A stretch of DNA of 42,600 nt, from NCBI GenBank assembly GCA_020629695.1, contig JAHDCV010000016.1, positions 25,882 through 68,481 on the forward strand, in the 5' to 3' direction. The position numbers and the translations under genes are program-made. The notes beneath the pieces are model-generated. The model was given only the letters and a program-made list of their open reading frames with translations. It searched no databases and was not told the DNA's origin. The number at the start of each line of letters is the position of its first letter. The stretch's first letter is position 1. Positions 29,835-35,475 of this stretch are shown here, piece after piece. Source of the DNA: Acidimicrobiales bacterium (GTDB lineage: Bacteria; Actinomycetota; Acidimicrobiia; Acidimicrobiales; SZUA-35).

Positions 29835-30959
29835 TCAGCCGAGCGACGGCGCGGCCAGCGACAAGCGTACGAGCGGAGCGGAGAGGGACCGCAGCCCGGC
29901 CTCGGATGCCGCTTCTCCGTCGTCGACGACCGACACCGCCGGCCCGAGCCGTGCCGCCACCTCGGCGGCCGCTTCGAGATCGTCGCCGGCCACGACCTCA
30001 CGCCCGTCTCCGGCCGGACGGTCCTCGATCTCGACCCGTCGCACGGCGAGACCCGCGGCGGTCATCTCGGACAGCGCCGCATCGACCGACACGACGCCAG
30101 CGGGAAGCGTCACGATCACCGCCGGGTGCTGCGCCGACGGTGCCAGCACACCGAGCGACGACCGCCAGAGCGACGCTCTCGCCTCGTCTCCGTCCGGCAG
30201 GTCGACCAACACCGTGCCCGGGGCATCGGTCGACCCGGCCGCCATCGCTGTGGTGTCGAGCGCCGCCGCGAGCACCGGACTGACGACCGCAGGCCGCGCC
30301 AGGCCGTCCTCGAGCAGCGCGGACCAGAACAGGCGATGACGAAACGCCTCGGCGCCGGCCGTCGCAGCCGCTGCTCCCGGTGCACCGAGCGGCCCGGCCA
30401 GATACGGCCCGATCGCCGCGGCATCCAGTTCGACGGTCCCGACCGCGAAGGCGAGCACACCTTCGGCGTCGAGCACCGGGTCGGGATTGTCCAACGTGAT
30501 GGTGCCACTCCCCATCGCCTGGGCCCAGACGACCGCATCGAGCACGTCGATCTCGCCGAAGGTCCAGCCGAGCTCGGCTGCCAGCTCCGGCCCGGCCCGA
30601 ACGGGCGAGAGGTCGCCGAGGCGCACGCCGCCCACCGGTGTGCTCGGTGGAAGCAGGATCATCGTGCCGCCGCTCGTGTCCGAACCGAGCGCCGCGACGG
30701 CGACCGCCCCGACGACCACGCCGTTCTCGACCACGAGAGCCAGAGCGGTCGGGGTCGGATCGACATCGGCGATCCAGCCGGGCTCACCGGGCAGCGGCTG
30801 CTCGACGAAACGCCCGTCGCGAGACTGGAGCACGCTGTTCGCTCCGACCCACGAGAGCACCGGGATGGCGGCGAGCAACACGAGCTGCACGGCCGCGAAG
30901 ATCATCATCGGTGATCGGTCGGCGGGCTCGTCGACCGTGGTGACGAGCGGCCGGATCAC
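29835..30959 (-). CDS. Membrane-anchored protein, probable degenerate LytR-CpsA-Psr (LCP) relative
   Basis: A 374-aa protein with one N-terminal transmembrane helix (about 19-40) and a long extracytoplasmic part. I do not recognise it with certainty. Its place between nadD and rsfS is where many actinobacteria carry an LCP wall-polymer ligase. The pattern GGTMILLPPSTPV, then LGWTFGEIDVLDAVVWAQAMG and a pro-rich end, follows the LCP layout (SIPRDTxV ... IDYYVxVDxxGFxxLVDALGG). The catalytic Arg residues, including RDT, are missing. A last domain (about 270-374) resembles the LytR C-terminal domain. GTG 30959 overlaps the nadD stop as GTGA, so translation is coupled. Confidence 0.68.
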   Translation of the reverse strand: MIRPLVTTVDEPADRSPMMIFAAVQLVLLAAIPVLSWVGANSVLQSRDGRFVEQPLPGEPGWIADVDPTPTALALVVENGVVVGAVAVAALGSDTSGGTMILLPPSTPVGGVRLGDLSPVRAGPELAAELGWTFGEIDVLDAVVWAQAMGSGTITLDNPDPVLDAEGVLAFAVGTVELDAAAIGPYLAGPLGAPGAAAATAGAEAFRHRLFWSALLEDGLARPAVVSPVLAAALDTTAMAAGSTDAPGTVLVDLPDGDEARASLWRSSLGVLAPSAQHPAVIVTLPAGVVSVDAALSEMTAAGLAVRRVEIEDRPAGDGREVVAGDDLEAAAEVAARLGPAVSVVDDGEAASEAGLRSLSAPLVRLSLAAPSLG

Positions 30960-31540
30960 GCTGCCCGAAGATAGAGCCCGCGTCGATCGATATCGGCGAT
31001 GACCGCATCAGGGGTGAGCAGCCGGATGCCGACGCCGTCGGCGACCCGACCGCGGAGCAACGTCGAGGAGATGTCGATACCGGGAATGCTGAGGCGAACA
31101 CTGCGCCATCCGGCCGGGGCGTCGCGTTCGTCGTCGCCCCGGTTGACCACGACGAACTCCGCCCGGTGACGCAACTCGTCGGCACGGTGCCACGTCTCGA
31201 GCCCTGCGGCCGCGTCGGCGCCGACGATGACCGACCATGACGTGTCGGGCTCGACCGAGGTGAGTCGCTCCAGGGTGTCGATCGTGTAGGTGGCACCGCC
31301 TCGCTCGATTTCGACGTCGCTCGCCACGACCCCGGACAACCCCTCGACCGCGCGCTCGACCAACGCGAACCGCACATCGGCGGGGGTCACGCGGCGCTCG
31401 TCGGACTTCTGCCACGGATCGTTCGCGACGACGAGCCTCACTTCGTCGAGGCCGAGCTGGTCCAGAGCCTCGACGGCCACCACCAGATGGCCGAGGTGAG
31501 GTGGATCGAAGGTGCCACCGAGCAGGCCGACCCGCTTCAT
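30956..31540 (-). CDS. nadD: Nicotinate-nucleotide adenylyltransferase
   Basis: NadD (194 aa) makes deamido-NAD from nicotinate mononucleotide and ATP. The nucleotidyltransferase motif GGTFDPPHLGH is at 8-18; WSVIVGADAAAGLETWHRADEL and IDISSTLLR (about 153-161) match the substrate and phosphate-binding regions. It heads the nadD-LCP-rsfS operon, with a GTGA overlap to the next gene. A 314-bp gap lies upstream, shared with the divergent sigma-factor gene, which occupies most of it with its own promoter and leader. I see no clear promoter for nadD itself. Confidence 0.97.
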   Translation of the reverse strand: MKRVGLLGGTFDPPHLGHLVVAVEALDQLGLDEVRLVVANDPWQKSDERRVTPADVRFALVERAVEGLSGVVASDVEIERGGATYTIDTLERLTSVEPDTSWSVIVGADAAAGLETWHRADELRHRAEFVVVNRGDDERDAPAGWRSVRLSIPGIDISSTLLRGRVADGVGIRLLTPDAVIADIDRRGLYLRAA

Positions 31541-31605
31541 CGGCCGAAACCGGGCGAGCTACCAGGAGTCGCAGCGAAAAACCACCCCGACGTGACGAGT
31601 TTCAC

Positions 31606-31635
31606 TTGAACGCCCTGGGCCATTCGGTCTAATGT
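31606..31635 (+). promoter_or_regulatory. Promoter of the sigma-70-family gene
   Basis: TTGAAC (31606-31611) and TAATGT (31630-31635) form -35 and -10 boxes with an 18-bp spacer. Transcription should begin near 31642, leaving a leader of about 213 nt, long for this window, where most leaders are absent. Confidence 0.6.
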
Positions 31636-31726
31636 CGAAAGTCGGATTGCCGAGCCACGCCAGCGCCAAGGTCGCACAGACACAACTGCACACGATTCGC
31701 CCTCACCACATACTCGTGAGGTAGTG

Positions 31727-31771
31727 ATGTCACTGCTTGCCGTCATCGTCGCAATGATGCACCGAGGCTAG
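31727..31771 (+). CDS. Putative 14-residue leader peptide upstream of the sigma factor
   Basis: A short frame ATG-to-TAG encodes MSLLAVIVAMMHRG. GAGG (31718-31721) lies 5 nt before the ATG, a good ribosome binding site. An inverted repeat AGTGA-TG-TCACT (31723-31734) covers the start codon and could modulate access. It lies about 85 nt after the predicted transcription start and about 80 nt before the sigma-factor gene. Directly after its stop begins a C-rich, G-poor stretch. The arrangement is that of a translated leader controlling downstream expression. Whether it is translated is unproven. Confidence 0.42.
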   Translation: MSLLAVIVAMMHRG

Positions 31772-31780
31772 CTGCCCTGC

Positions 31781-31840
31781 CCGGGTCCCACTCCCCCCCC
31801 GAATCCCCCCTGCCCCTGTTCCCACCTGAACCCACCACTT
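31781..31840 (+). other. C-rich, G-poor leader segment (possible Rho-utilisation site)
   Basis: By direct count this 60-nt segment has 35 C and only 7 G, with runs of eight and six C. Elsewhere the window has similar amounts of G and C. Such unstructured C-rich RNA is what Rho factor binds. It lies between the leader-ORF stop and the sigma-factor start. Confidence 0.5.
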
Positions 31841-31854
31841 TCGAGGCGCGTCCC

Positions 31855-32694
31855 ATGAGTGATTCCGTAGGCCAGTACCTGAACGAGATCGGTCTCGTTC
31901 CCCTGCTCACCGCAGACGAAGAGCGCGAGCTCTCCCAGATCATCGAGCGAGGCCGCGATGCGCAGGAGCGCATCGACGCCGGCGAGAACTCCGCTGCCAA
32001 CCGGCGTGCGGTCCGCCAGGCCGCCCGAGCGAAGGACCGGTTCATCCGGGCCAACCTCCGCCTGGTCGTCTCCGTCGCCCGCCGCTATCCGCTGCCCCCG
32101 TCGATGGAGCTCCTGGACCTGATCCAGGAAGGCAACCTCGGCCTCGAGCACGCCGTCGACAAGTTCGACTGGCGGAAGGGCTTCAAGTTCTCCACCTACG
32201 CCACCTTCTGGATCCGCCAGGCCATCGGCCGGGCGCTCGACCAGAAGGCCAGCCTGGTTCGCCTGCCCGGCGATCGCTCGGCCTCGCTGCGTGCCGCCCT
32301 CCGTGCGGTGTCGGGCGACGGCGACGAGTTGGACGACGAGCACGCTCGGCTCCACCGTCTCACCACCCCGACCTCGCTCGACCGCACCATCGGCGACGAC
32401 GACTCCAACGAGCTGGTCGACCTCCTCCCCGATTCCAACCCCGGCCCCGAGGCCGAGGTCATGCACCGGGCCGAGGAGTCCATGGTCACCGGTCTGCTCG
32501 AGATCCTCGATCCCCGGGCCCGCTACGCCGTCGAGCAGCGCTTCGGCCTCAACGACGGCCGCAAGCGCTCCTACCGTGAGGTCGGGGAAGAGCTGGGAGT
32601 CACCGCCGAGGCGGCGCGCCGCCTCGTCAAGCGTGCCGTGAGTGCCGTGCGCGACCAGGCCGGCTCGACCGTCACGGACTTCGACGCCGCCTGA
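31855..32694 (+). CDS. Sigma-70-family RNA polymerase sigma factor, atypical (RpoD-like, shortened region 3)
   Basis: A 279-aa sigma factor. Region 1.2 is DSVGQYLNEIGLVPLLTADEE split over 3-23; region 2 runs about 55-130, with FIRANLRLVVSVARRY, LLDLIQEGNLGLEHAVDKFD and FKFSTYATFWIRQAIGRAL. Region 4 spans about 205-268. Two departures from housekeeping sigma factors: residues 131-195 are too short for a full region 3 and lack the LGREPTPEE-type helix; and region 4.2 reads VTAEAARRLVKRAV rather than VTRERIRQIE. It is therefore a group 2-like or alternative factor, target promoters unknown. No Shine-Dalgarno precedes the ATG. A strong hairpin follows the gene, then DAHP synthase. Confidence 0.88.
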   Translation: MSDSVGQYLNEIGLVPLLTADEERELSQIIERGRDAQERIDAGENSAANRRAVRQAARAKDRFIRANLRLVVSVARRYPLPPSMELLDLIQEGNLGLEHAVDKFDWRKGFKFSTYATFWIRQAIGRALDQKASLVRLPGDRSASLRAALRAVSGDGDELDDEHARLHRLTTPTSLDRTIGDDDSNELVDLLPDSNPGPEAEVMHRAEESMVTGLLEILDPRARYAVEQRFGLNDGRKRSYREVGEELGVTAEAARRLVKRAVSAVRDQAGSTVTDFDAA

Positions 32695-32723
32695 TCGGCT
32701 CCGACAACCGAACGTTCCGGCTC

Positions 32724-32756
32724 GACGCCGCCTGCGGATTCCGTAGGCGGCGTCGC
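32724..32756 (+). terminator. Strong hairpin after the sigma-factor gene
   Basis: CGACGCCGCCT (32724-32734) pairs perfectly with AGGCGGCGTCG (32746-32756), extended by a G-U pair and CGG/CCG around an ATT loop. No T tract follows, as is common in actinobacteria. The left arm is also present at the end of the sigma-factor gene (32682-32693). Confidence 0.6.
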
Positions 32757-32824
32757 CGCGTCCGGGTCGGGGTTCGACACATAACACGTTGCCGGTTCCG
32801 CCGTGGGGAGGCCAGACTCTCCGG

Positions 32825-34165
32825 ATGCAGCAGTGGGATCCCGGTTCATGGCGTTCGAAGACGGCACTCCATCAGCCGGTCTGGCCGGATTCGAGTGACC
32901 TCGAGCGTGTCGAGAAGGAACTGAGCCTTCTCCCACCGCTGGTCTTCGCCGGTGAGGCCCGGGATCTGAAGGCACGACTGGCCCGCGTCGCCAACGGAGA
33001 GGCGTTCCTCCTGCAGGCCGGCGACTGTGCGGAGTCATTCGACGGCTTCCGAGCCGACGCCATCCGCGACCGGCTCAAGGTCATCCTCCAGATGGCCGTC
33101 GTCCTCACCTACTCCTCAGGGGTGCCCGCGGTGAAGGTCGGCCGCATCGCCGGTCAGTTCGCCAAACCACGGTCTCAGCCGACCGAGACCATCGACGGCA
33201 CCGAGCTTCCCTCGTTCCTCGGCCACATGGTGAACGACCTGCCGTTCTCCCCCGGCGACCGCCGCCCCGACCCGGGTCGCCTGCTGCGGGCCTACCACCA
33301 GTCGGCGTCCACGCTGAATCTGCTGCGGGCGTTCACCAAGGGCGGGTTCGCCGATCTGCACCAGGTCCAGACCTGGAACCAGGAGTTCGTCGCCGAGTCC
33401 GCTCAGGGGCAGCGTTACGCCGATCTCGCCACCGAGATCTCCCGGGCGCTCCGCTTCATGGAGGCATGCGGTGTCTCGTCGAATCATCCCGAGATCCACG
33501 AGGCGGATTTCTTCACCAGTCACGAGGCGCTGCTCCTGCCCTACGAGGAAGCACTCACCCGCAAGGACTCACTCACCGGCGAGTGGTACGACTGCTCGGC
33601 CCACATGGTCTGGATCGGTGAGCGCACCCGGCAGCTCGACGGCGCACACGTGGAGTTCTTCCGCGGCATCAAGAACCCGATCGGCTGCAAGATCGGCCCG
33701 ACGGCCACAGCCGACGACGTCATCGGCCTCTGCGAGGCACTCAACGCCGACCGCGAACCGGGTCGCCTGACCCTGATCGTCCGGATGGGCGCCGACAACG
33801 TCGTCGACGGGCTGCCGCCGATCCTCGAGGCCGTCAAGGCCGAGGGTCACCCCGTGGTGTGGGCATCGGACCCGATGCACGGCAACACGTTCACCTCCGA
33901 GAGCGGCCACAAGACCCGCCACTTCGACGCGGTGTTGCGCGAGGTCCAGGGGTTCTTCGCTGCGCACCAGGCGGCGGGAACCTGGGCAGGCGGTGTGCAT
34001 GTCGAGCTCACCGGCGAGGACGTCACCGAGTGCCTCGGGGGCACCACCCCGGTCGAGACCGCCGACCTCGGCAAGCGCTACGAGACGATGTGTGATCCCC
34101 GCCTCAATGGCCGCCAGGGTCTCGATCTCGCGTTCCAGGTCTCCGAGCTCCTCCGGAGCGACTGA
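32825..34165 (+). CDS. aroG: 3-deoxy-7-phosphoheptulonate synthase, class II
   Basis: The first enzyme of the shikimate pathway (446 aa), joining phosphoenolpyruvate and erythrose 4-phosphate to DAHP. It is of the class II (plant/mycobacterial) type: EAFLLQAGDCAESFDGF (about 58-74), VKVGRIAGQFAKPRS, SSNHPEIHEADFFTSHEAL split by turns, GIKNPIGCKIGPT, VVWASDPMHGNTF and HVELTGEDVTECLGG. Metal ligands Cys, His, Glu and Asp of the family are all in place. The N-terminal extension that regulates the Mycobacterium enzyme is present in short form. ATG 32825 is chosen since homology starts at MQQWDPGSW. GGGGAGG lies 13 nt upstream, rather far. It converges on the anti-sigma gene with a 5-bp gap. Confidence 0.96.
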   Translation: MQQWDPGSWRSKTALHQPVWPDSSDLERVEKELSLLPPLVFAGEARDLKARLARVANGEAFLLQAGDCAESFDGFRADAIRDRLKVILQMAVVLTYSSGVPAVKVGRIAGQFAKPRSQPTETIDGTELPSFLGHMVNDLPFSPGDRRPDPGRLLRAYHQSASTLNLLRAFTKGGFADLHQVQTWNQEFVAESAQGQRYADLATEISRALRFMEACGVSSNHPEIHEADFFTSHEALLLPYEEALTRKDSLTGEWYDCSAHMVWIGERTRQLDGAHVEFFRGIKNPIGCKIGPTATADDVIGLCEALNADREPGRLTLIVRMGADNVVDGLPPILEAVKAEGHPVVWASDPMHGNTFTSESGHKTRHFDAVLREVQGFFAAHQAAGTWAGGVHVELTGEDVTECLGGTTPVETADLGKRYETMCDPRLNGRQGLDLAFQVSELLRSD

Positions 34166-34170
34166 GACCG

Positions 34171-34821
34171 TCAGGCGAGTTCGCCCCGCACGAGGCTGAC
34201 CCCGGAGTGGGAGGGGTCACCGTCGTCCGGTTCGGCCGAGATGTCCACGACGTCGAAGCGACTGAGGTCGAGGTCGTCCGGGACGTCGTAGCTCCCGGAG
34301 CCGTCGACGACGCCGAGCGAGATCAGGTCGACCAGCTCCCCGTCGTCGGAGATGTCGAGCAGCCAGAGTTCGAGGAATTCGCCGCCACCAGCGGCGAGGC
34401 CGGTGTCGATGTCGAGCGAGACGTCGCCGCCGTCGTCGAGCAGCGTGGCCGACGAGACCGCGCCAGGAGCTGCTTCGAGCACGGCCAGATCGGCCGAGGC
34501 GAGTTCCACGGGGTCGTCTCCGCCGCCGAGCGCCAGGCCCAGCGGCACGGCCACCAGGAGGAGGATCCCGGCCACCAGGGTGGCGATGGCGACCGGACCA
34601 CCGAAGCGCCGCCGGCTCGAGAGGTCGATGACCGGCGCGAGCTGCTCGTCGGTCGCCACCGTCACCTCGGATTCAGGCGCACCATCGGCATCGAGGCCGA
34701 GTTCGCCCCGGATCGAGGCGAACAGCGCCGCCGAGCCGGGCGTCGTGTCGAGGTCGGGCGCACCCGCTCGAAGCAGGTCGGCGAGCTCGGCGTCGAAGGC
34801 GGGTTCATCGAAGTTCGTCAC
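34171..34821 (-). CDS. RskA-type membrane anti-sigma factor
   Basis: A 216-aa single-pass protein. The N-terminal about 72 residues are cytoplasmic and acidic (probably the sigma-binding part, without the HxxxCxxC zinc motif). A transmembrane helix spans about 74-99. The outer domain (about 105-216) has the RskA C-terminal pattern: FLELWLLDISDDGELVDL, DVVDISAEPDDGDPSHSG and SLVRGEL. Such proteins hold an ECF sigma factor at the membrane until cleaved by proteases after an envelope signal. GTG 34821 overlaps the sigma gene by 17 bp, so production of the two is coupled. Converges on aroG. Confidence 0.88.
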   Translation of the reverse strand: MTNFDEPAFDAELADLLRAGAPDLDTTPGSAALFASIRGELGLDADGAPESEVTVATDEQLAPVIDLSSRRRFGGPVAIATLVAGILLLVAVPLGLALGGGDDPVELASADLAVLEAAPGAVSSATLLDDGGDVSLDIDTGLAAGGGEFLELWLLDISDDGELVDLISLGVVDGSGSYDVPDDLDLSRFDVVDISAEPDDGDPSHSGVSLVRGELA

Positions 34822-35344
34822 GGCTCACCTCCAGTTCGGTTCGCAGCGCCGCGAGCCCTCGTCGGGCATGGCTCTTCACGGTGCCGAGCGGGAGTCCGGT
34901 CCGCTCGGCGATTTCATGGTGCGTGAGATCATTGTAGAACGCAAGTTCCACCACGATCCGCCGTTCTTCCGGCAGGCACGCCAGGGCTTCGGCGAGCACC
35001 AGCCGATCGGCGAGATGTTCGGCGGCCTGCGTCGGCTCGACGGGCTCGGGTCCGTCGTCGACGACCGGAGTCGGCCGCCGACCGGCGGCACGGAGATGGT
35101 CGACGACCTTGAATCGGGTGATGCCGATCAGCCAGGAGCGGAGCGAACCCCGCTCGGCATCGAAGCGGTGACGGGACTTCCAAGCAGCGACGAAGACCTG
35201 TTGTGCGACGTCGTCGGCCTCGGCACCCACCGACTTCCGGGCGAGGCCGAGGACGATGCCGGAGTGCTCGGCGAAGACCTCGGCCAGCGCTCGCTCGTCA
35301 CCTGCGACGAAGCGCTGCTCGAGCGTCTGTTCGGTCGCTGGCAT
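34805..35344 (-). CDS. ECF-type RNA polymerase sigma factor (SigK-like pair with RskA)
   Basis: A 179-aa sigma factor with only regions 2 and 4. Region 2 (about 10-80) has ADDVAQQVFVAAWKSRHRFD and GSLRSWLIGITRFKVVDHLR; region 4 (about 118-172) has LPEERRIVVELAFYNDLTHH and EIAERTGLPLGTVKSHARRG. With an RskA-type anti-sigma gene overlapping its 3' end, it resembles the SigK/ECF19 group. ATG 35344 is favoured over an upstream start 31 codons earlier, because family homology begins near MPATEQTLEQRF and TATCCT lies 6 nt before this ATG, fitting leaderless transcription. I do not recognise a typical ECF -35/-10 pair upstream, so autoregulation is not evident. Confidence 0.92.
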   Translation of the reverse strand: MPATEQTLEQRFVAGDERALAEVFAEHSGIVLGLARKSVGAEADDVAQQVFVAAWKSRHRFDAERGSLRSWLIGITRFKVVDHLRAAGRRPTPVVDDGPEPVEPTQAAEHLADRLVLAEALACLPEERRIVVELAFYNDLTHHEIAERTGLPLGTVKSHARRGLAALRTELEVSRDELR

Positions 35345-35350
35345 CGCTGC

Positions 35351-35356
35351 AGGATA
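35351..35356 (-). promoter_or_regulatory. Leaderless -10 box of the ECF sigma gene
   Basis: TATCCT on the minus strand lies 6 nt before the ATG at 35344, with no Shine-Dalgarno sequence. It matches the same spacing seen before dinG, the phosphatase-like gene and the CbxX gene. Confidence 0.5.
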
Positions 35357-35475
35357 CCCAGCCGGGCGCGCCTCGTTCGGGACCCCGTGGCCCCGGCGAA
35401 CCGGGGGCGGCAGCGTGATCTCGAGCAGCGTCATCACCCGGGGATTCGCACCTCACCCCGGGGATGGATGCACGA

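Follow-up and report, generated by a model that had tools for sequence, protein, structure and literature searches.

Rho-dependent premature termination in leaders has been documented in Mycobacterium tuberculosis (PMC12810186), an organism in which leaders have a median length of just about 48 nt (PMC13236596). In this species, the Mbox leaders of rv1535 and pe20 (PMC12810186) resemble the sigma-gene leader described here in that they belong to an actinobacterium, are long, and carry a predicted rut-like C-rich stretch 5' of the ORF, and the mechanism proposed for them couples translation and Rho. The Mbox, however, is a known riboswitch with a conserved and expressed uORF, and the action of Rho was tested there, whereas the sigma leader belongs to no known RNA family, has no conserved uORF, and has a predicted role for Rho. 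The ilvB1 leader of M. tuberculosis (PMC13236596) is likewise long and has a short ORF before the gene, but that uORF is conserved, contains branched-chain codons and is combined with an intrinsic terminator in uORF-controlled transcription attenuation; the uORF in the sigma leader is unconserved and has no run of branched-chain codons. C-run loops also occur in another actinobacterial RNA, the 6C/B11 sRNA of mycobacteria and other actinobacteria (RF01066; PMC10470900). In contrast to this free sRNA with two C-loop hairpins, the C runs of the sigma gene sit in an mRNA leader that gives no 6C match.

The sigma gene lies in a 42,600-nt stretch of DNA (the window, to which all positions refer) of an Acidimicrobiales bacterium (GTDB lineage Actinomycetota; Acidimicrobiia; Acidimicrobiales; SZUA-35), corresponding to positions 25,882-68,481 of the forward strand of contig JAHDCV010000016.1 in assembly GCA_020629695.1. 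The sigma factor can fairly be called atypical, as the earlier note had it, because alignment with two paralogs of its own genome reveals that region 1.1 is absent and region 3 is shortened. It is highly conserved across Acidimicrobiia, and its identity to full-length homologs of other genera in the family is 87-95%. A limited search of the open-access literature found nothing on the control of this sigma factor. Where homologous loci extend over 2 kb of flanking sequence, the neighbours are nadD, in divergent orientation (59/62), and a downstream gene for class-II DAHP synthase (58/62). In the window, nadD, the sigma gene and the class-II DAHP synthase gene occupy positions 30956-34165, a grouping preserved at almost every homologous locus in the class. 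The features of the leader region are collected in Table 1.

Table 1. Features of the sigma gene and its upstream region, in window positions.
Feature	Position	Strand	Remarks
Palindrome GTGACGAGTTTCAC, CRP/FNR-like by shape	31592..31605	+	Directly 5' of the -35-like TTGAAC
Promoter	31606..31635	+	-35-like TTGAAC at 31606-31611 (not conserved); -10-like TCTAAT/TAATGT (position conserved)
Leader RNA of the sigma gene, about 213 nt	31642..31854	+	Predicted start
Predicted local hairpin CCTCAC...GTGAGG	~31701..31721	+	Minimum-energy fold; unconserved in the same-genus genome
14-codon ORF MSLLAVIVAMMHRG, ATG...TAG	31727..31771	+	Judged a chance feature of the window genome
C-rich, G-poor tract	31782..31841	+	C8 at 31793-31800, C6 at 31805-31810
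Shine-Dalgarno GAGG of the sigma gene	31843..31846	+	From sequence; GAGGCGCGTCCC kept in the same-genus genome
Sigma-70 family gene	31855..32694	+	279 aa; regions 1.2, 2 and 4; Pfam and paralog alignment

A promoter with -35 and -10 boxes, followed by a leader of about 213 nt, had been proposed for this gene. Both boxes are present, and the position of the -10-like element is conserved among relatives; the -35-like hexamer is not. The -10-like element can be read as TAATGT at 31630-31635 (spacer 18) or as TCTAAT at 31628-31633 (spacer 16). Across the family, the layout consists of the palindrome, a -10-like motif about 20 nt downstream and, close to where transcription is expected to begin, a TTTGG/TCGG-type motif, with near-constant spacing, which backs the proposed leader length. 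In relatives, leaders measured between the start-region motif and the ATG are 150-213 nt long. Since the promoter layout is conserved and the leaders of relatives fall in this range, the transcript very probably starts near 31642.

The palindrome in the window matches GTGAC-N4-GTCAC at 9/10 positions and is also kept in the same-genus genome. Among the 104 distinct upstream regions of the sigma gene in our sample, which include related genomes, so that counts over them are not independent events, 43 match at 10/10 positions, compared with 0 shuffles. The GTGAC-N4-GTCAC palindrome overlaps the sigma promoter in most family members. Proteins with the HTH_Crp_2 domain are encoded in the same genome, and the shape of the palindrome suggests a putative CRP/FNR-type site, although other regulators with similar sites may bind it. 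No regulon can be drawn for this motif because its exact form is present at just three other places in the genome (L180-L182).

The C-rich tract upstream of the sigma gene exceeds chance in its own genome. The best 60-nt window of the tract holds 36 C and 7 G; the earlier note counted 35 and 7. As a control, we took 212 gene starts with 60 nt or more of intergenic sequence from about 421 kb of the same genome after rough gene calling; in C minus G per 60 nt, the sigma leader ranks first of the 212 with a value of 29, the runner-up reaching 21. The 4.17 Mb genome contains a single pair of C runs of the form C6-N(2-20)-C6, that of the sigma leader. When rut-like sequences were scored by a RhoTermPredict-like rule (78-nt window, regularly spaced C), the best C/G ratio of the leader was 3.5, the highest of the 94 starts with at least 150 nt. 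The tract is also the least paired part of the window leader, with a predicted unpaired fraction of 0.61-0.74 over its whole length.

The C-bias is kept among relatives. A run of at least five C (C5+) is found in the last 230 nt of 79 of the 104 homologous upstream regions and is absent from the other 25, whereas a G5+ run is found in 11. In all 11 genera of the family a C5+ run is present in one or more members, and the same-genus genome retains its C runs. Beyond the family, C5+ runs appear in the last 140 nt of 48/68 leaders, where dinucleotide shuffles average 23 and never exceed 31; inside the family the margin is modest, with 25/33 leaders compared with a shuffle mean of 16 and maximum of 25. 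A rut-like C/G ratio of at least 2 is reached on the sense strand in 25/32 family leaders and on the antisense strand in none. In the AT-rich marine genomes, paired C runs are not confined to this leader; each genome has them at a few places, and a reversed-pattern control is equally common. The recurrence of the C-run leader in GC-rich and AT-rich relatives with a common promoter layout makes it a definite, testable element, and its conserved C runs probably provide a point at which Rho, or some other RNA-binding regulator, attaches.

The earlier note placed the control of this leader in a 14-codon ORF, whose translation would govern the access of Rho. The ORF is indeed present with its own GAGG (31718-31721). 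However, the one same-genus genome available for comparison (L119), with 99% identity of the sigma protein across the 98 residues that could be compared, lacks the ATG of the uORF, its GAGG and the AGTGATGTCACT repeat, but retains the palindrome, the -10 region, a TCGGATTGCCGAGC segment and the C runs. Counting uORFs of 5-45 codons that have both ATG and a Shine-Dalgarno sequence (SD), we observed no enrichment: they are present in 2 of the 32 family leaders, whereas block shuffles give 2.5. ATG is as scarce in the leaders as at the bottom of the dinucleotide-shuffle range, or scarcer. In addition, the GAGG of the uORF sits within the predicted CCTCAC...GTGAGG stem. From these comparisons we conclude that the 14-codon ORF is a chance feature of this genome, and the proposed control by a leader peptide is not sustained. 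The earlier note had named lack of conservation of the short ORF or of the C-bias among relatives as grounds for refutation; such a lack is observed for the ORF and not for the C-bias. The stop codon of the ORF falls in a CTAGC segment (31768-31772) similar to the GAGCCTAGC segment that recurs in other genera. A persuasive uORF story built on one genome can thus collapse on a single same-genus comparison.

The same comparison bears on the inverted repeat AGTGATGTCACT at 31723-31734, which had been put forward as an additional control point. Apart from its loss in the same genus, AGTGA-N2-TCACT with at most one mismatch yields 2 matches against 0.53 expected, and 10 of 100 shuffles also reach 2, a signal that is marginal at best. 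We therefore discarded the repeat as a control point.

Structure in the leader was evaluated as well. In genera g10 and g3, the 5' end of the leader (GGAC/GGGC, then TAG-GCTC) can pair with GAGC-CTA and GUCC/GCCC located directly upstream of the C-rich part. With this long-range helix drawn by hand, 86% of cells pair, compared with 17-49% when the partner is slid. Compensatory change is limited to two pairs and does not exceed shuffles, most pairs being invariant, and a partner-swap test of the 5'-end pairing is marginal (p 0.02 to 0.07 in three versions). A covariance model built from eight leaders matches further g10 members as well as a single leader from another genus (L024, E 0.012), with no match to the window or its nearest relative. 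Minimum-energy folds of other genera give different long-range helices, and MAFFT with RNAalifold on 12 leaders yields almost no consensus structure. Ahead of the start codon, family leaders show a mild tendency to form local hairpins (mean z -0.93). For the window leader, structure is thus a lead and not a result, the modelled long-range helix being supported only in other genera.

No known riboswitch or other leader family accounts for the region, as no curated Rfam covariance model matches it. The window region has no match at E up to 1, and the 14 homologous loci searched have none above threshold and only two sub-threshold, implausible ones. The 6C RNA (RF01066) was found in 0 of 13 Acidimicrobiia genomes and was not among the Rfam matches of the window or its homologs. 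The leaders of the AT-rich marine genomes (L087, L090, L100, L105, L106, L116, L117) contain a GATC-CCCCC-GATC C-loop hairpin, a TCTGG-NNNN-CCAGA hairpin and then a CCCCCAACCCCC segment, and resemble a structured RNA without an Rfam match.

A conserved tract that is rich in C, poor in G and untranslated would fit Rho loading, as had been supposed, and Rho is the most likely reader of the leader. The rho gene is encoded in the same genome (TIGR00767 match above the cut-off, 510 bits). The reading we favour, although we hold it with slightly less than even confidence, is that the sigma gene is transcribed, by way of a long untranslated leader, from a promoter with an overlapping CRP/FNR-like site, and that the C tract is an entry site for Rho gated by translation initiation or by leader structure, with no conserved part for a leader peptide. 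Rho would load on the single-stranded C tract within the last 60 nt or so before the SD. If the sigma ORF is translated promptly, ribosomes would shield the RNA and transcription would go on; if initiation is slowed by leader structure or by a bound regulator, Rho would stop transcription within the first part of the sigma gene. With the tract lying right beside the start codon, release would take place inside the early coding region and would be blocked by prompt sigma translation, and the gate on which a signal acts would therefore be initiation or leader structure, and a leader peptide would have no conserved part in it. Against a plain Rho reading, Rho does not require anything as specific as runs of five to eight C, 25 homologs have no C5+ run, and release is needed within the coding region.

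The specificity of the runs leads to a reading in which they act in trans, by pairing with a G-rich RNA, by binding a protein specific for C runs, or by exposing loops that act on other mRNAs in the manner of 6C/B11. We consider it unlikely, although it is a real rival because the B11/6C sRNA uses C-rich loops to pair with G tracts, B11 repressing a target whose 5' UTR contains a G6 tract (PMC10470900). The enrichment of homopolymeric C runs beyond dinucleotide content outside the family points in this direction, as does the C run of the AT-rich marine relatives, which lies in a conserved GATCCCCCCGATC hairpin and is accompanied by another after the TCTGG-CCAGA hairpin; the Rfam searches and the failure to find 6C RNA in the Acidimicrobiia genomes speak against it. 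Also unlikely, and ranked next, is that the tract is a mere unstructured spacer that keeps the ribosome-binding site open and has no specific reader. Its low pairing and its position beside the SD are what such a spacer would offer, but an A-rich spacer would be equally good, and yet C runs recur, even in AT-rich genomes. Less probable again is that the leader is an unrecognised cis-regulatory RNA of Acidimicrobiia, in which the 5'-end helix would be switched by a ligand, a protein or a partner RNA so as to expose or hide the C runs that set sigma expression; the pairing in g10 and g3 would suit this, whereas the covariance model does not extend to the window.

Two further possibilities seem very improbable. 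Translation of the 14-codon ORF might control the access of Rho in this species only, given its good SD and spacing and its place just 5' of the C tract; in addition to its loss within the genus, its shuffle-like frequency and its SD in a predicted stem, the ORF contains no single-amino-acid or aromatic-codon run to suggest a sensor. The least credible is a signal at the DNA level, in which RNA polymerase would be slowed by a template-strand G-quadruplex that the C runs mark. The window tract does have at least four closely spaced C3+ runs, but such a four-run motif is present in only 5/33 family leaders and 2/68 others, and it is therefore not the conserved feature. The template-strand G-quadruplex was rejected on this rarity.

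Two minor observations concern the surroundings of the system. The probable start of the rho gene (L176 about 6803, G000:C62, in frame with the rho match) is among the 15 most C-over-G leaders sampled, and its bias is far milder than that of the sigma leader. On the minus strand of the window, positions 34171-35437 carry an ECF-type sigma gene (Sigma70_r2, Sigma70_r4_2) with an RskA_C-type anti-sigma gene directly after it, a pair that constitutes a further sigma system, lying 1.5 kb from the first.
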